A stretch of 64,000 nucleotides of DNA from a bacterium (GTDB lineage Bacteria; Elusimicrobiota; Elusimicrobia; UBA1565; UBA9628): positions 638,808-702,807 of the forward strand of contig JAKAQO010000001.1 of the NCBI GenBank assembly GCA_021822495.1. The letters run 5' to 3'. The notes beneath the pieces were generated by a model. That model was not told where the DNA came from, ran no database searches, and saw only the letters and a program-made list of their open reading frames with translations. Position 1 is the first letter of the stretch. Each line of letters opens with the position of its first letter. Positions 2,175-30,208 of the stretch are shown piece after piece. The position numbers and the translations under genes are program-made.

Positions 2175-2246
2175 TTAACTCTTCTTGCAACAATCGTCTG
2201 TGTAGCAATTCTCGCAACAGCTCTTGCAACAATTTTTCTCCTCCAT
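2175..2246 (-). CDS. 23-residue cysteine-rich peptide of the merR operon
   Basis: A tiny open frame whose product has seven cysteines in 23 residues: NCCKSCCENC near the N-terminus and DDCCKKS at the end. Its ATG lies five bases after the stop of the DF-family gene. The G-rich tract AGGGGGGG, overlapping that gene's last codons, is a good Shine-Dalgarno, so translation is probably coupled. Paired cysteines with lysines and acids resemble a minimal metallothionein-like thiolate chelator. Third gene of a Hg-type merR operon, so a role in buffering soft metals such as Hg(II) is a reasonable inference. No homologue is known to me. Confidence 0.6.
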   Translation of the reverse strand: MEEKNCCKSCCENCYTDDCCKKS

Positions 2247-2251
2247 CTTAA

Positions 2252-2566
2252 TCACCCCCCCTTTTTTTCCCATCCTTGCGGTCGTCCAAGGACCGCCGCG
2301 ATTTGATCGACGCTCGGCGCGCCGCCAAAGCGGCAAGCCCCGGAGCCTCCGGCGGCGGATGCTCCCGTCGTTATTTCCTTGCTTCCGACCATGATAGTCG
2401 GAGACGGGAAGCCGCGCCATTCCGCCGGCGCGCTTTCCGATCGCAGGTCGATCTCTTCCCAAACCGGGTCAAACCCCGCCCGAGACAACGCGGTCCTCAG
2501 ATTTTGCCGGGCTTGTTCGACGTTGGGACAGCCGTCAAAATAAAGCAGTTGAACCTTGACCTTCAT
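2252..2566 (-). CDS. DF-family thiol protein (thioredoxin-like)
   Basis: A 104-residue protein opening with a beta strand and the motif YFDGCPN (Cys13), characteristic of the small DF family, whose members are selenoproteins in some bacteria. Here the position is ordinary cysteine. Further features are the SPTIMVGSKEI stretch, where a cis-proline would lie, and a second cysteine (Cys78) in GSGACRFGG. The start is the ATG overlapping the merR stop (ATGA) rather than an upstream in-frame ATG inside merR. Co-transcription with a Hg-type MerR points to metal-thiol chemistry. Exact function is not established for the family, as far as I know. Confidence 0.75.
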   Translation of the reverse strand: MKVKVQLLYFDGCPNVEQARQNLRTALSRAGFDPVWEEIDLRSESAPAEWRGFPSPTIMVGSKEITTGASAAGGSGACRFGGAPSVDQIAAVLGRPQGWEKKGG

Positions 2567-2973
2567 CGTGGTTGTTCCTCCAAACACTCCAAAATCTGAC
2601 AGGTATCGATCATCGTCTTGGTTGCGCAAGTTCGAATCAAGCGCCTGAGCGCTTTTTCCATCGCGCGCAGGCTCGCCATCTTTTCTTTCACGCTGTCGAG
2701 CCGGGCCTGGGCCTGCCGCCTGACTCCCGCGCACTGCCCGCCGTGGCGTGTCTGCAGACTTAACAATCTTGCAATTTCGTTGAGAGTAAAGCCCAACCCC
2801 TGCGCATTTTTGATAAAGCGAATCTTTTTGATAGATTCATCGCCATACAACCGGTATCCCGATTCAAGACGGCTTTCCGGACGCAATAGTCCGCGCCGCT
2901 CGTAGTAATGCAGGGTCTGGATATTCACCTTGGCGAGTCTAGCCGCCCGGCCGATGGTCAACGTTTCGCTCAT
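2563..2973 (-). CDS. merR: MerR-type Hg(II)-responsive transcription regulator
   Basis: A 136-residue MerR protein with an N-terminal winged helix (TIGRAARLAKV, then LHYYERRGLL), a dimerisation helix and a C-terminal metal-binding loop. Cys81, Cys116 and Cys125 have the same spacings (35 and 9) as the Hg-binding trio Cys82/Cys117/Cys126 of Tn501 MerR, which strongly supports Hg(II) sensing. An extra Cys130 is present. The start was set at the ATG at 2973 because AGGAGGG lies seven bases upstream; the longer frame would run through the promoter. It overlaps the DF gene by four bases. Transcription is co-directional with its targets, as in Gram-positive mer operons. Confidence 0.9.
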   Translation of the reverse strand: MSETLTIGRAARLAKVNIQTLHYYERRGLLRPESRLESGYRLYGDESIKKIRFIKNAQGLGFTLNEIARLLSLQTRHGGQCAGVRRQAQARLDSVKEKMASLRAMEKALRRLIRTCATKTMIDTCQILECLEEQPR

Positions 2974-2992: not shown

Positions 2993-3024
2993 AGTATAAA
3001 CCCTATACCAAGGTATAGAGTCAA
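2993..3024 (-). promoter_or_regulatory. MerR-type promoter with long spacer and operator
   Basis: Read on the minus strand: TTGACT (3019-3024), 20 bases, TATACT (2993-2998). The spacer contains the dyad CTATACC-TT-GGTATAG (3003-3018). A 19-20-base spacer with a central dyad is the signature of promoters that MerR proteins twist open when the metal is bound. It drives merR itself, so the operon should be autoregulated and metal-induced. Confidence 0.85.
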
Positions 3025-3135: not shown

Positions 3136-3163
3136 TTGACTATTACACATAACTATGTAATAC
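3136..3163 (+). promoter_or_regulatory. arsR-operon promoter with operator dyad, leaderless
   Basis: TTGACT (3136-3141), 16 bases, TAATAC (3158-3163). The spacer holds TATTACA (3141-3147) and TGTAATA (3156-3162), a 7-base inverted repeat of the AT-rich kind bound by ArsR/SmtB repressors. The -10 box ends seven bases before the ATG at 3171 and no Shine-Dalgarno is seen, so a leaderless transcript is expected. Autorepression relieved by metal is the natural model. Confidence 0.75.
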
Positions 3164-3170
3164 TTGGACT

Positions 3171-3533
3171 ATGGCTCGCCCCATTGCTTCCATTTGTGTC
3201 CCCAAGCCTAAGTTGAACGCGCGTCCGCTGATCGGCCTGCGTCAGGCATCCGGCCTCGAAGGGCTTTTCAAGGTCCTCGCGAATGACACTCGCCTCCGGC
3301 TCCTTCATGCCTTGGCGCGGGAAAAAGAACTCTGCGTCCTGGATATGGCCCATCGCATCGGAATGAAGCCGCAGGCGGTTTCAAATCAACTTCAGCGCCT
3401 CGTCGGCAAGCGCATTCTGGCGTCAAGACGCGAAGGTCTCCAGATTTTCTATCGAATCGTCGATCCCTGCGTGACGGAGCTGCTCGACCGAGGCCTGTGC
3501 CTTCTTGAAGATTCGGGCGGAGGCAGACCGTGA
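3171..3533 (+). CDS. ArsR/SmtB-family metal-responsive repressor
   Basis: A 120-residue winged-helix repressor. The core ANDTRLRLLHAL and the recognition helix MKPQAVSNQLQRL are diagnostic of ArsR/SmtB. Cysteines lie at 9, 55 (in ELCVLDMA, where arsenic sensors carry CxC), 100 (VDPC) and 110. Only one cysteine occupies the classical alpha-3 site, so metal would probably be held with Cys100/Cys110 of the C-terminal helix, as in other thiol-based variants. The inducer (As, Hg, Cd, Pb) cannot be decided. It heads a four-gene operon in which every junction overlaps by four bases. Confidence 0.88.
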   Translation: MARPIASICVPKPKLNARPLIGLRQASGLEGLFKVLANDTRLRLLHALAREKELCVLDMAHRIGMKPQAVSNQLQRLVGKRILASRREGLQIFYRIVDPCVTELLDRGLCLLEDSGGGRP

Positions 3534-4693
3534 ACCGCGCGGAGTTGGATTCGGCGCTCGCGCAACTGCGCGACGCGATCAAGCACAAGAAATGCTGGGT
3601 CTGCGGCTGCCAACAGTCCTTCGCCCGGACACTCCGGGAAAGCCTTGATGAGATGCCGGAAGCGGATCGTCGAGAAATCGAGCCGCTCTTGAGCCGGTCC
3701 GAAGCGACATTTCGCCCGGTCGAGTACGACTGTCTGGGCTGCAAGGTCTGCTTTCCCGCGATAGCGACGAATGCCTTGGCGGGCGCATACCCGGCCTTCG
3801 CATCCGGCGAGGGCTGCGCTGTCGGCGCCGACGACAAGGAACGCTCCGGCTGGCCGCCTCTGCCTGGCAACTATGAGGTCCGGCGTTATCAAGCCGCTGT
3901 TGCCGTCTGCACTCTCAACTCTAAGAACATGATCCGCGAAGTGGTGGACCAAAATCATCCCGAAATTGGAATCGTCGGAACGCTCAATACCGAGAACCTC
4001 GGAATCGAACGGCTCATAAAGAACATCGTCTCCAACCCCCACATCCGCTTTCTGATCCTTTGCGGGGAGGATTCCAGGCAGAAGATCGGCCACCTCCCCG
4101 GGCAATCGCTGGCAAGCCTCTTCCAGCACGGGGTCGACAAAAACGGCCGCATCATCGGCGCGGAGGGCAGGCGGCCGGCGCTCAAGAACATCGAAGTCGG
4201 CCATGTGGATCGATTTCGCATGCAGGTCGAGCTTGTGCCGATGGTTTCATCCATGAATGCGGCGGAAATCCTGCGCGCGGCCGACTCTTGTGTCGGCAGG
4301 AATCCCGGAAGATTTCCAGATAACGGGTTTGCCGCGGCCGTCCCGACGGTCCAAGCTCACCCGCCGGAACGGTTGGTTCTTGATCCCAGCGGTTATTTTG
4401 TGATTTTCCCGGACAGATCGCGACGCCGCATCATGCTTGAGCACTACACGAACGACGGCATGCTCAGCCGCGTCATTGAGGGCCGCGATATCGGCGATAT
4501 CTATGCGACCGCGATCAGCTTGGGCCTTTTGAGCCGCCTCGACCACGCCTGCTATCTGGGCAAAGAGCTTGCCAAGGCGGAAAGCGCGCTTGCCTCCGGC
4601 TCGGAATATCGGCAGGACAAGGCTCCGGACTATCGGGGCGACGCAACCGATCCAAAATGCTCGGGAAAAGGATGTTGCGGGGAGAACGCATGA
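3530..4693 (+). CDS. MtrA-like corrinoid protein with DUF4346-like C-terminus
   Basis: A 387-residue protein, GTG start overlapping the arsR stop. Residues about 112-245 match the cobamide-binding subunit MtrA of archaeal tetrahydromethanopterin S-methyltransferase (TENLGIE, then SNPHIRFLILCG, then IGHLPGQS, then GRIIGAEG). His188 in IGHLPGQ corresponds to the histidine I recall ligating cobalt in MtrA (GHITGQ), so corrin binding looks intact. The N-terminal region has two cysteine clusters, CWVCGC (22-27) and CLGCKVC (68-74), fit for Fe-S or Zn. About 260-360 resembles DUF4346, and the tail KCSGKGCCGENA is thiol-rich. No transmembrane anchor, unlike archaeal MtrA. Methyl transfer to or from a metal(loid) is my inference from the operon. 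Confidence 0.78.
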   Translation: MNRAELDSALAQLRDAIKHKKCWVCGCQQSFARTLRESLDEMPEADRREIEPLLSRSEATFRPVEYDCLGCKVCFPAIATNALAGAYPAFASGEGCAVGADDKERSGWPPLPGNYEVRRYQAAVAVCTLNSKNMIREVVDQNHPEIGIVGTLNTENLGIERLIKNIVSNPHIRFLILCGEDSRQKIGHLPGQSLASLFQHGVDKNGRIIGAEGRRPALKNIEVGHVDRFRMQVELVPMVSSMNAAEILRAADSCVGRNPGRFPDNGFAAAVPTVQAHPPERLVLDPSGYFVIFPDRSRRRIMLEHYTNDGMLSRVIEGRDIGDIYATAISLGLLSRLDHACYLGKELAKAESALASGSEYRQDKAPDYRGDATDPKCSGKGCCGENA

Positions 4694-5115
4694 GGGCCGA
4701 AACGCCGCGCCAGAAAGGGATAATTCTGGCATTGACCGCGTTGGCCGTCGCCGGAGTCCTAATCGCCAAGGGCCATTTTGGTTCCAAAGTTCCAGTTGGC
4801 GGCGATAACTCTCCAATGGCAACCCCCGCCGTCTATCTTTTCCTCGACGAATCCGATCAAGATGGCGGCTGCCGCAGGATCTATTCTTTGTTTGAGGACG
4901 CAAGATCAACGCTGCCTCCAGGCGTCCATGCGGCTAGGGTGAACGTCAACGAGGATAACGGCCTCGTCGGCAAGTTCGGAGTCCGCGTTCTTCCAACCGT
5001 CGTTTTCGTGGACAAAACTGGAAAGGTCGTTGAAAGGATCGAGGGCGAAGGGCCGGAGGTCGAGACGCGGCTGCGCTCGGCTCTGGCCGAGGCGCCTCAA
5101 CTCCTCGCTCCATGA
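4690..5115 (+). CDS. Membrane-anchored thioredoxin-like protein with a single cysteine
   Basis: A 141-residue protein with one N-terminal transmembrane helix (about 10-27) and a thioredoxin fold outside the membrane. The active-site region reads DGGCRRI, so Cys61 is alone where CxxC is usual, and VLPTVVFVD supplies the cis-proline loop (Pro102). The start was set at 4690, which overlaps the preceding stop (ATGA) and has GGGGAG upstream; an earlier in-frame ATG at 4657 lies inside the preceding gene. A monothiol could pass a thiol-bound metal or be reduced by mixed disulfide with the CcdA-like neighbour. Partner and substrate are inferred. Confidence 0.75.
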   Translation: MRAETPRQKGIILALTALAVAGVLIAKGHFGSKVPVGGDNSPMATPAVYLFLDESDQDGGCRRIYSLFEDARSTLPPGVHAARVNVNEDNGLVGKFGVRVLPTVVFVDKTGKVVERIEGEGPEVETRLRSALAEAPQLLAP

Positions 5116-5756
5116 TTCTTCCGCTTCACGACGGCGCGACCGCGTTCGGGGCCGTCCTCGTCGGAGGCATCGTCTCGGCCTTTAATCCTTGTTGCCTGTC
5201 GATGAGCCCCGCGATGATGGCGCTGGTCGCCGATCACCATGCCCGCAAACTCCACTCAGCTTTGGTGGCGACCCTCGTAATCTGCGGTTTTGCTACTACG
5301 ATGGCGGCGTTGGGAGCCCTGAGTTCCACGCTAGGCTTGATTTTTGGGCACATGGGACACGGATTCTCTTATGCGGTTTCTGCCATCCCCATCTTGATGG
5401 CTTTACAAATGCTCGGCGTTATCGACATTCATCTTTCCGTGATACGAATGGCAGGGCTCGACGGCCATTTGGGGGCGATGACGGCGGGGGCCGCATATGC
5501 CCTTGTAGTCGCTCCCTGCGCTACGCCGATTCTTGCGTCCATACTCGCCTATTCGGCATCGAAGGGCAACATCGTCTACGGGACGAGTCTGCTTTGGGTC
5601 TATGGAGTCGGATTTTGCGGGCCTCTGTGCGCGTTCGGCGCGCTTTTTGCATCGCTGCGGCGGACGAGAATGATCGGACTAAATTTGGAAAGGTTAAACG
5701 CCTTCACTGCCGTAGTTCTCATGTTGCTTGGGCTTTCTCTGCTCTGGAAAGCCTGA
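5112..5756 (+). CDS. CcdA/DsbD-type transmembrane electron carrier
   Basis: A 214-residue, six-helix membrane protein of the CcdA family, which moves reducing equivalents from cytoplasmic thioredoxin across the inner membrane. The two redox helices are visible as FNPCCLSMSP (Cys27/Cys28) and VVAPCATPI (Cys136). The adjacent cysteine pair CC is a mild variation. The ATG overlaps the thioredoxin stop (ATGA). In this operon it would reduce the anchored single-cysteine thioredoxin and so supply electrons to the corrinoid protein's pathway or to an envelope step. Cytochrome c maturation is the alternative, but no ccm genes are nearby. Confidence 0.85.
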   Translation: MILPLHDGATAFGAVLVGGIVSAFNPCCLSMSPAMMALVADHHARKLHSALVATLVICGFATTMAALGALSSTLGLIFGHMGHGFSYAVSAIPILMALQMLGVIDIHLSVIRMAGLDGHLGAMTAGAAYALVVAPCATPILASILAYSASKGNIVYGTSLLWVYGVGFCGPLCAFGALFASLRRTRMIGLNLERLNAFTAVVLMLLGLSLLWKA

Positions 5757-5879
5757 TATCGCATAACGCGGTTCCGACCTCGGGTCCGGCCGTCGGCATG
5801 GGATAAGGCTCCGGCGACTCCCCCAAAATCGCCCCGGCGAGATGGGTACCTTATTTCTTTCCAAGCCCTTAATATCCAT
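5757..5879. other. Non-coding junction at right edge of GC-rich island
   Basis: No gene is apparent. Base composition changes visibly here, from the GC-rich metal operons to AT-richer sequence at about 5850. A frame open on the minus strand through this stretch continues from the truncated paralogue next door but has no family resemblance. It is most simply the scar where the island joined older chromosome. Confidence 0.5.
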
Positions 5880-6169
5880 GTTCGCGCTCAAAACCTCAGA
5901 AGATGACGGTTCAAAAGAAGTCCTGCTATTTTTTTTAAGCAAAGGCATTCGCTTTCTTATTTGGCCTAGCCGCACAAATACTTCAGAACCGTTCTTATTT
6001 TGATTGGCTTTCAAAGATGAGGTGAGTTCTCCAAAAACTTGGCCAGAATTGTCTTTCGCCGCTTCTAAAGAATCTTCAGCTTGAGTTTTTAAAACGGAAA
6101 CGAGCCCCAAAGAAAGAACGAGCCCGGAAAGAAAAACAGATTTTCTCGTTTTATCATTCCCCCATTCAT
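5880..6169 (-). pseudogene. Truncated, frameshifted third paralogue of a secreted family
   Basis: The minus-strand frame carries a signal-peptide-like stretch (SVFLSGLVLSLGLVSVL) and then SLEAAKDNSGQVFGEL, which matches SLERAKNDSSQAFGEL and ESSKVASDRAFGE of the two neighbours. No ATG is in this frame: the ATGs at 6169 and 6157 lie in another frame that stops after about 22 codons, so a small frameshift near 6150 separates start from body. The C-terminal half present in the paralogues is absent, replaced by island sequence. It directly follows the stop of the preceding paralogue (TGATG). A TTG start at 6110 would drop the signal peptide. Confidence 0.6.
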
Positions 6170-6801
6170 CATTGCGAAATTAAATCCGTAGAAAAATATT
6201 TTTCCCAACTGGTAAAATCAGGTTTAGATTCCCCTTGAGCCCAGTTTTGAGTGGAACCCGCTTTGATCGCTTCACTTCCCGCGCCAACCGCCGCCCCCAC
6301 CACGCTTCCAGCCAGATTTCCCGCTTGAAGTAATAATCCCCCTGTGACAACCACGGGCAAAAGAACAAGCCAAAACGCCGCGCCAAGCGCTGGAGAAGTT
6401 TGAGCGGCCGCGGAAACAGTCTCAATAGAACTGTTAATCATATTTTTTCCAGGCTGACTGCCAATTTCAGTTCCTACTACAGCGCCTGATTTAATTCCAC
6501 CAAGAACATTTCGCCGAGGTTTTTCTAATGGCGACCAAGAATTTTCCATAGAATTATTTTTTGTTTCTTTTATTTGCCCTGAACTCTTCTTGAGAAAAAT
6601 TCTTGAGTGAGAAGAAATATTTCGCAGTTGAAGCATTGGCGAAAGCGCTGGAGAAGAATGATTTTGCTTAAAGCCTTCCCTTAATTCCCCAAACGCTTGA
6701 CTTGAATCATTTTTTGCTCTCTCTAAACTTTCCGCATGGAGTAAATGAGAAAACACAGTTAAAACAGCGCCAAAAATAAAAAGGATTTTAAATTTTTTCA
6801 T
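6169..6801 (-). CDS. Secreted protein of unknown tandem family, member 2
   Basis: A 210-residue protein with an N-terminal signal peptide (MKKFKILFIFGAVLTVFSHL, cleavage probably after HAES). It has a polar serine-rich middle and a C-terminal hydrophobic, glycine/alanine-rich hairpin (ALGAAFWLVLLPVVVTGG, then GSVVGAAVGAGSEAIKAGS) that could insert in a membrane. It shares with its upstream neighbour the motif A-x-x-x-S/D-x-A-FGE near the N-terminus and the ending GST-x-NW. The two genes overlap by four bases. I do not recognise the family. The glycine-zipper-like C-terminus suggests envelope association. Confidence 0.7.
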   Translation of the reverse strand: MKKFKILFIFGAVLTVFSHLLHAESLERAKNDSSQAFGELREGFKQNHSSPALSPMLQLRNISSHSRIFLKKSSGQIKETKNNSMENSWSPLEKPRRNVLGGIKSGAVVGTEIGSQPGKNMINSSIETVSAAAQTSPALGAAFWLVLLPVVVTGGLLLQAGNLAGSVVGAAVGAGSEAIKAGSTQNWAQGESKPDFTSWEKYFSTDLISQ

Positions 6802-7448
6802 TGATTGACTCCGCCTTCATTGGCTATTTTTCCTAAGGCTTCCGTGGCTAGCCGCGCGGAATTTGACGACTTTGTTGAAGGAGTTTGTGAGGTGGGATCT
6901 GGCCAGTTTTTTGTCGAACCGGGTTTAATCACTTCAGCCGCCGCTCCTATCACGGATCCAGCCGCCGCCCCTGCTGTTGCTCCAACAGCCATCAACATCA
7001 CGCCCGCGGTAAAAATTAATGAAAAAGGAAGCGCAAGAATAAAACCAAGGAGGCCATTTCCCAAAACATCCCCAATTTTTAATGTCGCTCGATTCATTTG
7101 ATTTTGAATCCATATCCCAGGCTTAGTTCCCAATTTCCCGCCATCTACAAAACCAGAGATCACTCCTCTCTGAATATTTCTCACATCCCCTTGAGGGCAT
7201 GACGGAACTTGAGTTGCATTTTGTGAAAAGCGAGAAGAATGGGCCAAGGTTAATTGAGACTGGGCAGCTATCTGATGGAGAGCCTGCTCCGAGTTAAACC
7301 CAGAAGGGTTTTGACTCTGGGAAAATGCGCTGTTATTTTCTCCAAAGGCTCTATCTGAAGCTACCTTGCTACTTTCCAAATCTCCCGCCCAAACTTTGGC
7401 GGAAAAAAACGCAAATACAACCACATAGGAAAAAATTTTAAATCTCAT
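6798..7448 (-). CDS. Secreted protein of unknown tandem family, member 1
   Basis: First gene of the tandem family, 216 residues. The start at 7448 has a perfect AAGGAGG eight bases upstream; a longer frame from 7487 is less likely. It has a signal peptide (FKIFSYVVVFAFFSAKVWA), the shared motif SSKVASDRAFGE, and a C-terminal pair of hydrophobic segments (LLGFILALPFSLIFTAGVMLM, then GATAGAAAGSVIGAAAEVIKPGS). No catalytic motif is visible. Divergence between members 1 and 2 is high while architecture is kept, which fits an old tandem duplication with selection on the membrane hairpin and the FGE motif. Function unknown. Confidence 0.7.
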   Translation of the reverse strand: MRFKIFSYVVVFAFFSAKVWAGDLESSKVASDRAFGENNSAFSQSQNPSGFNSEQALHQIAAQSQLTLAHSSRFSQNATQVPSCPQGDVRNIQRGVISGFVDGGKLGTKPGIWIQNQMNRATLKIGDVLGNGLLGFILALPFSLIFTAGVMLMAVGATAGAAAGSVIGAAAEVIKPGSTKNWPDPTSQTPSTKSSNSARLATEALGKIANEGGVNQ

Positions 7449-7535
7449 TACCCCAACCTCCTTGAAAAGACTTTTCCATAAACTCACCCTAACTGCTTTA
7501 CTCCTATTTGTTAGCAGAAATTTTTTAAGAAGGGA

Positions 7536-25800: not shown

Positions 25801-26664
25801 ATGGACATCCGCGAGATATTTTCTCAAGGGCGCCCCGTCATTTCCTTTGAGTTTTTTCTTCCCAAAGCTCCGGAAAACCTCCCTGAGTTCATCGACAATC
25901 TCGAAGAGTTTAAGGCTCTTCATCCGGACTTTATCACGCTCACCTATGGAGCCGGAGGCTCCGAACAAGGCCGAACCATCGAGGCGGCCGGGCTCATCAA
26001 ATCCAAAACGGGGCTTGAAACCGTCTGCCATCTCACGGGAATCACCCACACGCAAGAGGAAATCGAGGAACGGTTAAAACGCCTTAAAGATATTGGTATC
26101 GGAAAGATTGTCGCGTTGCGGGGAGATATCCCAAAGGGAAATCCCTCCCTTCCGGGTCGTTTCCCGCACGCTAGTGATCTCATCGAAATGATCCGGGAAA
26201 TGGGAGGCTTTCAAATCGCGGCGGCGGGTTATCCGGAAACCCATCCCGAGGCAAAATCTCCCGAATCGGATATTTTCTATCTCTCGGAGAAAGTTCGCGC
26301 CGGGGCGGATTGGATCATTACCCAAATTTTTTTTGACAACAAGGATTATTTTGATTTCGCCAAACGCGCAAAGGCCGCCGGAATTTCCCGTCCCATCATT
26401 CCGGGGATAATGCCGGTTACGAATTTCGCGCAGCTCAAGCGTTTTTCCTCCCTTTGCGGGACGAAAATCCCAGAAATAATGGCCCAGGAACTCAAAAAAA
26501 TAGAAAATGAGCCCGAAGCCGTCGTCCAATACGGAATTCAATGGGCAAGCCGCCAGGCGCGCGGGCTTTTAGAGGGAGGGGCCCCCGGCATCCATTTTTT
26601 CACGCTCAACCGCAGCCACTCGACCGCCGAGGTATTGCGGCAAATTAGGCAGAAAACCGTCTAA
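25801..26664 (+). CDS. metF: 5,10-Methylenetetrahydrofolate reductase
   Basis: A 287-residue FAD enzyme that reduces methylene-THF to methyl-THF, the methyl donor for MetH just downstream. Family features are the N-terminal SFEFFLPKAPEN (catalytic Glu region), LTYGAGGSE, ALRGDIPKG and QIFFDN. The gene lies 58 bases before metH on the same strand, so the two probably form one methionine operon. The 100-base leader shows no recognisable SAM or cobalamin riboswitch. Confidence 0.96.
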   Translation: MDIREIFSQGRPVISFEFFLPKAPENLPEFIDNLEEFKALHPDFITLTYGAGGSEQGRTIEAAGLIKSKTGLETVCHLTGITHTQEEIEERLKRLKDIGIGKIVALRGDIPKGNPSLPGRFPHASDLIEMIREMGGFQIAAAGYPETHPEAKSPESDIFYLSEKVRAGADWIITQIFFDNKDYFDFAKRAKAAGISRPIIPGIMPVTNFAQLKRFSSLCGTKIPEIMAQELKKIENEPEAVVQYGIQWASRQARGLLEGGAPGIHFFTLNRSHSTAEVLRQIRQKTV

Positions 26665-26722
26665 AATTATTTCGTGAAATATGAGCCTGAAGAAAAGCGA
26701 GTTTTGATAAAATAAATTCTTC

Positions 26723-29700
26723 ATGGAAGCTTCCCTTAAAGACGCTCTTGGCCGCCGAGTTTTGATTTTAGACGGCGCGATGGGAACCTTGATCCAAGAG
26801 GCCCGCCTTTCGCCGGATGATTTTGGTGGACACGCGCTTGAGGGATGCAATGAAAATCTGGTTTTGACGAGACCCGATCTCATAGAACAAATTCATGAAA
26901 AATATCTCGAGGCCGGGGCCGATATCATCGAGACTAACACCTTCGGGGCCATCCCCTACGTTTTGGCGGAATACGGGCTTGCGGAAAAAACAAGGGAAAT
27001 CGCAATCCGGGCGGTTCAGATCGCCAAACAAGCCGCCGCGAAATACGCGAGTCCCCATCGCCCGCGCTTCGTGGCCGGGGCCTTGGGTCCGGGCACGAAA
27101 ACGATTAGCTTAGCCGGCGGGATTACCTTTGACGAGGTTTCAAGGGCCTATCAAGAATCGGTCTTGGGTTTAATCGAGGGCGGCGCGGATTTGATTTTGC
27201 TTGAAACCCAGCAAGATACGCTGAACGTCAAGGCGGAATTGATTGGGCTTGACCGGGCTTTTCAAATAGCGGGCGCGTCCCTGCCCGTGATTGTTTCCGT
27301 CTCCATTGAATCTTCCCAAACGATGCTGGCGGGGCAAACCATTGAAGCCCTATATGATTCCTTATCTCATTTGGATCTTTTGGCGATAGGCCTTAACTGC
27401 GCGACCGGTCCGGAATTCATGGCCGATCACCTGCGGACATTATCCGGAATTTCGCGTTTTCCCGTTATTTGTTATCCCAATGCCGGGCTCCCCGACGAAC
27501 ACGGACATTATCACGAGTCTCCCGATAAAATGGCGGAGGTCTTGGGACGTTACTTAAAAGAAGGTTGGATCAACATTGTGGGCGGATGTTGCGGGACGAC
27601 TCCGGAACATATTCGGCGCATCGCCTCCATCGCCCAAGGAGTTTCTCCCTCAACCTCGCGGACAAATCTGCAAAGAAACGCGGTTTCTGGACTAGAATCC
27701 CTGGTCCTCGTTGAGGAAGAACGGCCCTATTTAGTGGGAGAAAGGACCAATGTGATCGGTTCGCGCGCGTTTAAGGATTTAATTTCTCAAGGACGTTATG
27801 ACGAGGCCTCCGAAATTGGGCGCGCGCAAGCCAAAAATGGGGCGCACATCCTGGACGTTTGTCTGGCGAACCCCGATCGGGAGGAAATGGAGGATATGGA
27901 ACGCTTTATCCCGAGCATTTCCCATAAAATTAAAATTCCGATCATGATTGATTCGACCGATACCACGGTCGTGGAGGCGGCTTTAAAGAGAACTCCGGGG
28001 CGTTCCATCATCAACTCGATTAATCTTGAAGACGGAGAGGAGCGCTTTGAAAAAATTGTTCCGCTGATCAAGCGTTACGGCGCCGCCGTGGTTGTGGGGA
28101 CCATCGACGAGGATAAAACCCAGGGAATGGCGCTCAGTCGCGAGAGAAAACTCCAGATCGCCTTAAGAAGCCGGGACTTGCTCACGAAAGAATATGGCCT
28201 CAAGGATGAGGATCTGATTTTTGATCCCTTGGTCTTCCCCGCCGCGACCGGAGATAAGAATTATTGGGGTTCCGCCATCGAGACCATCGAGGGCGTGCGC
28301 TTGATTAAAAAGGAAATCCCGAAATCAAGGACGATCCTGGGAATTTCCAATGTTTCGTTCGGCCTTCCACCCGCCGCCCGAGAGGTTTTAAACGCGGTTT
28401 TCCTTCATCAATGCGTTCTCGCTGGGCTGGATTTGGCGATTGTCAATACCGAAAAATTGGCGCGTTACGCGTCTTTAAATGAGGAGGAAAAATTCTCGGC
28501 CCTTAATCTTTTGTCCTGGAAGGGACCCGGCGATTCGCGCTATCCCCAGGGTTTTGACGCGGTTCAGGATTTTTCCTCGCGATTTCAAAAGCCCCGTGAA
28601 AACTCAAAAACCGGGGATCAAAAATCAGAGCTTCCGGTTCCGGATCGTTTGGCGCGAAATATCGTGGATGGATCCCGAGTCGGGCTAGAAGCGGATTTAG
28701 ACGAGATGCTCAAAACCCTTTCTCCCCTTGAGATTATCAACGGCCCTTTGATGAGTGGAATGGACGAGGTTGGGAAACTTTTCGCTTCAAATCGGATGAT
28801 TGTCGCCGAGGTTTTGCAGTCAGCCGAGGTGATGAAGGCGGCGGTTAGCTATCTTGAGCCTAGGATGGATCAATCGCAGCTTGTTTCCCGCGGACGAGTG
28901 GTTTTGGCCACGGTCAAGGGAGACGTTCATGATATAGGGAAAAATTTGGTCCACATTATTTTTAAAAATAATGGCTATGAGATCATTGATTTGGGTATTC
29001 GAGTTTCCCCGGAAACCTTAATCGAGGCCGTGAAAGAAAAATCTCCGCATATAGTCGGTCTTTCAGGGCTTTTAGTTAAATCCACCCAGCAGATGGCGGC
29101 GACGGCCTCTGATTTAGAGGCCGAGGGAATTTCCGTTCCCATTCTCGTTGGAGGAGCGGCCTTGTCTCCCAAATTCGTCGCCTCTAAAATCGCGCCCATT
29201 TATTCAGCTCCCGTTTTTTACGCCAAAGACGCGATGTCGGGCCTTGACATCGCCAATCGTTTCCAAGACGCCTCTGCCAGAGAGGCTCTTTTGGAAAAGA
29301 ATAGGGAAATACAAACCCATTTATCAAAAATGAACGGAGTTCCTTCCGAACGCTCTCCCATGGTTGTCGATAATAAGAAAATATTATCCCGCGATCATTC
29401 CATTCCCATTCCGACGGATTTTGTCCCACGCATTCTCTTGGACTTTTCTCTTGAAAAAATTTTCTCCTATATTAATCCCGTGATGCTTTATGGAAAACAT
29501 CTGGGTCTTAAGGGTGTGGAGGCGAAAATCAAGGAAAAAGATCCCAAGGCCTTGGACTTAATCCTTAAGGTATCGGAACTCCAAAGAGAAGTGATTTCAA
29601 AAAAACAAATGTCCGCTAAAGCCGTTTATCGGTTTTTTAGGGCGGATTCGAATGGGGAATCCTTGAATCTTTACGATCCGAGGAGTCTCAATGTTCTTGA

Positions 29701-30208
29701 AACCTTCGTCTTTCCACGCCAAAATTCAGGGGAGGGCTTGTGTCTATCCGATTTTACGGAGCCTAAAGGGTCAGGGAAAAAGGATTTCGTGGCCCTTTTC
29801 GCGCTCAGTTGTGGATTTGGTGTTCGGAAACTCTCGGAGTTGTATCGCGATCGCGGGGAATATTTTAAATCCCATGCCCTCCAAGCCCTGGCCATTGAAT
29901 CGGCCGAAGCTTTCGCCGAACTTCTGCATGAAAAAATCCGCTCCGAGTGGGGGTTTCCCGACCCTTCAACAATGACTCTGAAGGAAAAATTCCAGGCCAG
30001 GTATCGAGGACTGAGGGTGAGCTTTGGTTATCCCGCTTGCCCAAACCTGGAGGATCAGGAAAAACTTTTTCGGCTATTGGATGTCGAAAATTCCATCGGC
30101 GTGAAGCTGACCGAGGGCTTCATGATGGAGCCGGAGGCCAGCGTCTCGGCCTTAGTCTTCCATCATCCGGAGGCGCGCTATTTCGCCGTTTCTCCGCCCT
30201 CGGTTTAG
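26723..30208 (+). CDS. metH: Cobalamin-dependent methionine synthase
   Basis: A full-length 1161-residue MetH. Order of domains: homocysteine-binding barrel (about 1-310, zinc cysteines in GLNCATGP and VGGCCGT), pterin-binding barrel (about 330-600, VGERTNVIGSRAF), B12-binding cap and Rossmann region (about 640-870, with the cobalt-ligating His in GDVHDIGKNLV), and a C-terminal SAM-dependent reactivation domain (about 900-1160, RFSFGYPACP-like RVSFGYPACPN). It methylates homocysteine with methyl-THF. It shows that the cell uses cobamides, relevant to the MtrA-like protein at 3530-4693. Confidence 0.97.
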   Translation: MEASLKDALGRRVLILDGAMGTLIQEARLSPDDFGGHALEGCNENLVLTRPDLIEQIHEKYLEAGADIIETNTFGAIPYVLAEYGLAEKTREIAIRAVQIAKQAAAKYASPHRPRFVAGALGPGTKTISLAGGITFDEVSRAYQESVLGLIEGGADLILLETQQDTLNVKAELIGLDRAFQIAGASLPVIVSVSIESSQTMLAGQTIEALYDSLSHLDLLAIGLNCATGPEFMADHLRTLSGISRFPVICYPNAGLPDEHGHYHESPDKMAEVLGRYLKEGWINIVGGCCGTTPEHIRRIASIAQGVSPSTSRTNLQRNAVSGLESLVLVEEERPYLVGERTNVIGSRAFKDLISQGRYDEASEIGRAQAKNGAHILDVCLANPDREEMEDMERFIPSISHKIKIPIMIDSTDTTVVEAALKRTPGRSIINSINLEDGEERFEKIVPLIKRYGAAVVVGTIDEDKTQGMALSRERKLQIALRSRDLLTKEYGLKDEDLIFDPLVFPAATGDKNYWGSAIETIEGVRLIKKEIPKSRTILGISNVSFGLPPAAREVLNAVFLHQCVLAGLDLAIVNTEKLARYASLNEEEKFSALNLLSWKGPGDSRYPQGFDAVQDFSSRFQKPRENSKTGDQKSELPVPDRLARNIVDGSRVGLEADLDEMLKTLSPLEIINGPLMSGMDEVGKLFASNRMIVAEVLQSAEVMKAAVSYLEPRMDQSQLVSRGRVVLATVKGDVHDIGKNLVHIIFKNNGYEIIDLGIRVSPETLIEAVKEKSPHIVGLSGLLVKSTQQMAATASDLEAEGISVPILVGGAALSPKFVASKIAPIYSAPVFYAKDAMSGLDIANRFQDASAREALLEKNREIQTHLSKMNGVPSERSPMVVDNKKILSRDHSIPIPTDFVPRILLDFSLEKIFSYINPVMLYGKHLGLKGVEAKIKEKDPKALDLILKVSELQREVISKKQMSAKAVYRFFRADSNGESLNLYDPRSLNVLETFVFPRQNSGEGLCLSDFTEPKGSGKKDFVALFALSCGFGVRKLSELYRDRGEYFKSHALQALAIESAEAFAELLHEKIRSEWGFPDPSTMTLKEKFQARYRGLRVSFGYPACPNLEDQEKLFRLLDVENSIGVKLTEGFMMEPEASVSALVFHHPEARYFAVSPPSV

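Follow-up and report, generated by a model that had tools for sequence, protein, structure and literature searches.

The window analysed here is a stretch of 64,000 nucleotides from a bacterium of the phylum Elusimicrobiota (contig JAKAQO010000001.1, positions 638,808 to 702,807), and its own numbering is used for all operon coordinates. Near its start four overlapping genes lie in one run with a single promoter ahead. They encode in turn an ArsR repressor, a protein that unites an MtrA-like cobamide domain with DUF4346, a thioredoxin-fold protein and CcdA. Sequence and genomic context lend good support to two conclusions: the operon very probably has a role in metal(loid) resistance, and there is scarcely less reason to expect the MtrA-like protein to bind a cobamide. 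A further step is favoured with reservation: the operon may represent a mobile resistance module for thiophilic metals and metalloids, in which the cobamide protein either methylates the metal(loid) or takes a methyl group from it. An earlier note on this DNA, made without database searches, had reported the four genes and their overlapping ends. All are in place, family matches confirm their identities, and the homology scores of the operon proteins are far above chance.

A cobamide site in a bacterial protein

The central gene (positions 3530–4693, forward strand) encodes a protein of 387 amino acids. Residues 105–268 match the MtrA family PF04208 with 136.7 bits against a cut-off of 25, and the solved structures that match best are those of cobalamin-binding MtrA, 5laa (158 bits when the family profile is used) and 5l8x. 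The residues that hold cobalamin in MtrA include Tyr18, Thr53, Glu54, Asn55, Gly57, Asn64 and the cobalt ligand His84 (Wagner and colleagues, PMC4915002); alignment to 5laa gives Y115, T154, E155, N156, G158, N165 and H188 as their equivalents in the window protein. His188, encoded at 4091–4093 on the forward strand, corresponds to the lower axial ligand of cobalt and lies in the motif GHLPGQ, as the earlier note had recognized. All seven contacts, the ligand included, are invariant among five full-length bacterial proteins sharing 33–50% identity. As 35 of the 164 positions of the domain (21%) are invariant, the probability that all seven contacts would be so by chance is P = 1.2e-5. The cofactor itself is probably available in the host: MetF (methylenetetrahydrofolate reductase) and a full-length B12-dependent MetH are encoded side by side at 25801–30208 of the window, and the genome contains two B12-binding-domain matches besides MetH.

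The protein has two features in addition to those of MtrA: six invariant cysteines at the N-terminus and DUF4346 at the C-terminus. The cysteines (residues 22–74; 3593–3751, forward strand) had been noticed as two CxxC-type clusters, which are more correctly CxxCxC (22, 25, 27) and CxxCxxC (68, 71, 74), and they are found in all five full-length relatives. The CC tail that had also attracted attention is not conserved among relatives. The region is possibly an iron–sulphur (Fe-S) or soft-metal site; it matches no known Fe-S family, Pfam giving no match within residues 1–104.

The PterinBD-DUF4346 domain occupies residues 284–363 (4379–4618, forward strand; PF14251, 74 bits). The Archaeoglobus copy is joined to a Pterin_bind domain, and in other Elusimicrobiota the fusion partner is a Fer4_15 ferredoxin (L014 1219–1803 and L018 1219–1782). 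A stand-alone DUF4346 gene on a Calothrix plasmid directly follows a cobalamin riboswitch (57.7 bits), and on a Nostoc plasmid another such riboswitch (56.5 bits) heads a DUF1636-metE-DUF4346 run. Taken with the MtrA domain, these B12 and pterin contexts, which the earlier note had missed, mean that one and the same chemistry is indicated by both halves of the window protein, unrelated though they are. The cyanobacterial stand-alone copies (L063 4594–5327, L061 1580–5327) reside in cobalamin-riboswitch islands whose other genes include metE, DUF1636 and those for ribonucleotide reductase.

Neighbourhoods of the related loci

Six loci were counted as independent: those of the window, G041, G469, Planococcus, Paraburkholderia and G247, with three Planococcus plasmid records counted once. 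Metal-resistance genes adjoin in all six bacterial loci, an ArsR gene in four and CcdA/thioredoxin genes in two, a raw tally without a background rate. In the window the neighbours are an AntR-like ArsR, the thioredoxin-fold protein, CcdA and a divergent MerR. The G041 locus, from another class of the phylum, likewise combines ArsR (with an ELCVCEI motif), CcdA, a thioredoxin-fold protein and an MtrA-DUF4346 protein in one operon, and also harbours an ArsP_1 permease (203 bits) and a weak ArsD match. At the G469 locus an ArsR closest to CadC (74 bits to 1u2w) is accompanied by MtrA-DUF4346, a MerT-like protein and a Cd/Zn-type P-ATPase. The Planococcus plasmids carry ArsR, a heavy-metal-associated (HMA) protein, a heavy-metal P-ATPase and an MtrA-DUF4346 protein with a Cys-rich insert, followed by a transposase. 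The Paraburkholderia megaplasmid shows a divergent MerR whose score to the Cd/Pb regulators CadR-PbrR (148.5 bits) is just under the cut-off of 151.45; here a short Cys-rich open reading frame (ORF) ending in ACCSCCG (L006 7764–7883) immediately precedes the MtrA-DUF4346 gene. The G247 locus (L026) comprises an MtrA-only gene (224 amino acids), a lipoprotein-like protein, Cys-rich proteins and a MerT-like membrane protein (weak Pfam match) related to that of G469, on a contig with apparent transposase and integrase genes.

The linkage to ArsR, thioredoxin and CcdA proposed in the earlier note is therefore real and broader than was thought, with P-type ATPases, ArsP-type permeases or MerT-like proteins adjoining elsewhere. 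Of its interpretation, the full MtrA-type cobamide site and the presence of relatives in metal-sensor-controlled operons have held up, whereas CcdA and thioredoxin are not a constant part. Homologues lying mostly apart from ArsR and CcdA were to count against it, and on this point the tally gives a mixed answer.

Two observations on individual copies may be added. In the Planococcus heavy-metal P-type ATPase (L008 5350–7266) CSC stands where the membrane motif is usually CPC, and NEG is found near the C-terminus. Selenocysteine in the G041 and G469 copies, a candidate prompted by a flagged TGA, was considered and set aside: in G041 the TGA was read where the coding sequence ends and is thus probably an ordinary stop.

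The sensor and the probable metal

The first gene of the operon (3171–3533, forward strand) encodes an ArsR/SmtB repressor (NF033788, 80 bits, cut-off 55), as the earlier note had stated while overlooking its likeness to the antimonite-responsive AntR. Its best annotated plasmid matches are the antR repressors of Enterobacter plasmids, to which it is 61.7% identical; identity to AntR-type repressors spans 60–62%, and a C-terminal cysteine pair, DPC-x9-C, is common to both. The solved protein 6uvu_A is matched with 125 bits (E 1e-35), and its sequence is nearly identical to the Enterobacter plasmid antR within the aligned part. We take 6uvu to be the structure of AntR, and the Cys-x9-Cys pair presumably binds Sb.

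This resemblance is the strongest clue to the metal of this copy, and the window operon is most likely aimed at Sb(III) and/or As(III). The neighbourhoods of the remaining loci suggest As, Cd/Pb or Hg, and the common denominator can be read as thiophilic metals and metalloids. Another AntR-like repressor (∼55% identity) heads a different operon on a Massilia putida plasmid from wolfram-mine tailings (L066 5001–9601); this operon also encodes an ABC transporter and a protein with a DsbD N-terminal domain.

Operon layout and membrane components

At each of the three junctions the start codon overlaps the stop codon of the gene before (GTGA, ATGA, ATGA), and the four genes are probably translationally coupled. 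Ahead of them lies a match to the sigma-70 promoter consensus, TTGACT-17-AATACT (3136–3164, forward strand); position 3136, from which the earlier note had the operon begin, belongs to its −35 box. A perfect inverted repeat of 7 bp, TATTACA-N8-TGTAATA (3141–3162, forward strand), covers the spacer and the −10 box just before the start of arsR and is likely to be the ArsR operator.

The thioredoxin-fold protein (4690–5115, forward strand; PF00085, E 4e-6) has one N-terminal membrane helix. Its start codon overlaps the preceding stop (ATGA), and the gene most likely starts at 4690 rather than 4657. The classical CxxC active site is absent and the single cysteine, rightly described in the earlier note, stands in GGCRR. 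CcdA, a thiol-relay membrane protein of the CcdA/DsbD_TM type (5112–5756, forward strand; PF02683, 59 bits, cut-off 27.1), displays its cysteines in NPCC and APCATP and shares 25% identity with its G041 counterpart.

A proposed mechanism and its rivals

In the mechanism proposed here the AntR-like repressor would switch the operon, whose central product would be a cytosolic protein with its cobamide bound base-off and His188 under the cobalt, as in methanogen MtrA. The cobalt would shuttle a methyl group between a metal(loid), held or delivered by the six-cysteine region, and a methylated tetrahydropterin that docks via DUF4346; alternatively, the six-cysteine region may house an Fe-S cluster that keeps the cobalt as Co(I). 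Either the methylated metal(loid) would exit the cell or, in the reverse direction, an organometal(loid) would be stripped of its methyl groups. Electrons or thiols would cross the membrane by way of CcdA and the membrane-anchored thioredoxin-fold protein; efflux pumps adjoin the gene in other loci. What we infer is methyl transfer, its direction, the identity of the substrate and the part played by the cysteines and by CcdA.

Methylcobalamin can serve as a methyl donor to As, Sb, Bi and Hg, and cob(I)alamin is strongly nucleophilic. For methylotrophic methanogens, a corrinoid-dependent route by which dimethylarsenate is demethylated has been put forward (PMC6776024, PMC10579292). It is on account of this chemistry and this proposal that methyl transfer between a pterin-linked cobamide and a metal(loid) is favoured. 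The fuller claim is more doubtful: that these loci form a mobile B12-dependent resistance pathway for metal(loid) methyl transfer or organometal demethylation, of MtrA type with a pterin-linked domain, directed in the window at antimony or arsenic and distinct from S-adenosylmethionine-dependent ArsM, from HgcAB and from MerB.

Several results weigh against the proposed mechanism. MtrH (PF02007) was sought in G000, G041, G469 and G247 and in two plasmid records, with no match; as the hosts tested have no such methyl-pterin methyltransferase, the methyl source is only a proposal. CcdA and thioredoxin are restricted to two loci, and a cobalamin riboswitch was found neither within the window nor in the host genome. 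The AlphaFold (AF2) model of the whole MtrA-like protein has a mean confidence (pLDDT) of 45.6, too poor for a view of the pocket. For DUF4346 there was no solved relative, and a model of this domain alone was weak (pLDDT 59.8) and gave no Foldseek match at E <0.1. Furthermore, the sensors vary among loci (Sb/As, Cd/Pb, Hg-like), and we know of no methylation of Cd or Pb as a means of detoxification: this variety, the CadC-type sensor above all, weakens the case for a single metal-methylation role. Organometal demethylation or a metal-stress back-up of one-carbon metabolism fits the varied sensors about as well.

Such a back-up would be needed if soft metals poison thiol-dependent methyl-transfer enzymes; the operon would then supply an extra corrinoid/pterin methyl carrier for one-carbon and B12 metabolism that does not act on the metal. 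Sensors for several different metals are more easily reconciled with one shared target than with one shared substrate, and stand-alone DUF4346 genes do accompany metE and a B12-independent ribonucleotide reductase in cobalamin-riboswitch islands. The operons, however, are devoid of a homocysteine-activating or other methyl-acceptor domain, and the six invariant cysteines and the Planococcus Cys-rich insert suggest direct contact with metal, so that this explanation is unlikely, if still one to be reckoned with. The same cysteines, the same insert and the small Cys-rich neighbours in the window and in Paraburkholderia would suit a metal-binding chaperone or sink, which sequesters a thiophilic metal while the corrinoid domain holds its cobamide without performing chemistry. 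Given that every tested B12 contact is strongly conserved, including the His-Glu pair, and that G247 retains the MtrA domain without the cysteine region, a sink appears improbable.

A corrinoid redox protein is also conceivable, in which Co(I), reduced via an N-terminal Fe-S cluster, would reductively cleave or reduce the metal(loid) with no methyl carrier involved. The Fer4_15 ferredoxin fusions of DUF4346 within the phylum and the resemblance of CxxCxxCFP to part of a ferredoxin motif speak for it; the failure of the N-terminal region to match a known Fe-S family and the pterin link of DUF4346, which would stay unexplained, render it distinctly improbable. Least credible is a chance neighbourhood, in which a methyltransferase subunit of housekeeping function came to lie next to arsR by accident. 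Automatic annotation does name the protein tetrahydromethanopterin S-methyltransferase subunit A, but metal-resistance genes adjoin in six of six loci from several phyla, the settings include plasmids and mobile elements, and the hosts tested have no MtrH.

Relation to known systems

The methyl-transfer module favoured here can be compared with several known systems. With MtrA of the methanogen Mtr complex and its cytoplasmic homologues (PF04208; 5laa, 5l8x) the window protein shares a Rossmann-type corrinoid domain, the His84 lower ligand, its partner Glu54 and the residues for the nucleotide tail, and it is 35–44% identical within the domain to archaeal solo MtrA. It differs from MtrA in the added six-cysteine region and DUF4346, in its metal-sensor operon and in hosts in which MtrH was not found. 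The archaeal solo MtrA genes examined adjoin an MtrH-like gene, as judged from a reading of ORFs. A function as subunit A of the Na+-pumping Mtr complex was considered and rejected on the absence of MtrH from the hosts tested, MtrH being the one partner searched for. The full-length family NF002128 (PRK00964.1-6), which is named after MtrA, has the same architecture as the window protein and matches it over residues 3–383; the score of 451.2 bits lies under the curated cut-off of 568, which leaves the protein outside this equivalog, and the methanogenesis that the family name implies is a misfit with these hosts.

HgcA and HgcB represent a corrinoid protein and a cysteine-rich redox partner that act on a metal, in the methylation of mercury. 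HgcA consists of a CFeSP-type domain with a Cys ligand plus a membrane domain. In contrast, MtrA has a different B12 site with a His ligand (PMC4915002), His188 in the window protein, for which a match to the HgcA family was sought and not found. The antimonite operon of antR and a P-type ATPase resembles the window operon in its repressor and in the cysteine pair described above. On the Enterobacter plasmids antR is followed by a gene for a small Cys-rich protein and then by the ATPase, an arrangement akin to the ArsR, small metal-binding protein and P-type ATPase of Planococcus. However, no corrinoid protein is present at the antR-ATPase locus examined, and no P-type ATPase adjoins the window operon. 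The Sec-assisted organometallic (SAO) and Tso selenoprotein operons are similar in being metal or organometal operons, and a review that cites both makes no mention of MtrA (PMC13188914). The families TsoR (ArsR/SmtB), TsoB (DsbD-type) and SaoE (permease) gave weak scores on proteins of the present loci, far under their cut-offs.

Bacterial MtrA homologues, most of which retain the His ligand, are already on record (PMC4915002), and MtrA in bacteria is therefore not new by itself. A role in metal resistance is undescribed in the literature searched: no account of DUF4346, or of MtrA linked to ArsR, CcdA, cadmium or metal resistance, was found in a search whose coverage excluded most subscription papers.

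The divergent side and a probable island

On the other side of the promoter region lies a divergent MerR regulator (2563–2973, reverse strand) with the Cys/Cys-x8-Cys arrangement of mercury MerR. Its scores to TIGR02051 and ZntR (114 bits each) are below both cut-offs, and its best solved match is 5crl, the mercuric resistance MerR. An inverted repeat of the MerR operator type, ACCCTATACC-2-GGTATAGAGT (3000–3021), is situated inside TTGACT-20-TATACT, read from the minus-strand sequence. Downstream of merR is a thioredoxin-like protein of the DF (seleno)protein family with an FDGCP motif (2252–2566, reverse strand; NF049942, 40.8 bits, below the cut-off of 70), which is tied to the operon by this divergent neighbourhood only. 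After these two genes an ORF with a G-rich stretch upstream (2175–2246, reverse strand) encodes a peptide of 23 amino acids, seven of them cysteines, MEEKNCCKSCCENCYTDDCCKKS. It is possibly a metal-binding, metallothionein-like microprotein; a family search with it gave no match. Beyond the operon, two adjoining secreted-looking ORFs (6169–7487, reverse strand) both show an SxAFGE-like motif near the N-terminus and look like tandem paralogues; positions 5694–6110 may hold a third ORF related to them.

The G+C content is ∼60% over most of 2.0–5.5 kb compared with ∼48% on either side, and the block looks like a horizontally acquired island. No MtrA match was obtained in the other tested genomes of the genus or family, and among 341 genomes of the phylum the full-length protein is present in three and an MtrA-only version in one. 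By identity the closest relative of the window protein is the Paraburkholderia plasmid copy (43%), the two other full-length copies of the phylum being 34–38% identical. In a tree the nodes that separate the Paraburkholderia copy from the other copies of the phylum have modest support (42–64), while the G041 and G469 copies group with a support of 100. A single-sequence search of genome contigs with the window protein matched archaeal DUF4346 fusions only, and nothing was found in viral contigs and phages.

Significance

B12 chemistry is possibly an unrecognized way to cope with toxic metals. If the reading given here is true, it would place vitamin B12 chemistry inside the ordinary, partly plasmid-borne toxic-metal resistance of non-methanogenic bacteria and would explain a protein named in databases as a subunit of methanogenesis. 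Should Sb, As or Hg be methylated or demethylated by it, a new enzyme would join the environmental cycle of those elements and DUF4346 would gain a function. The copies in Planococcus and Paraburkholderia make the question accessible at the bench.

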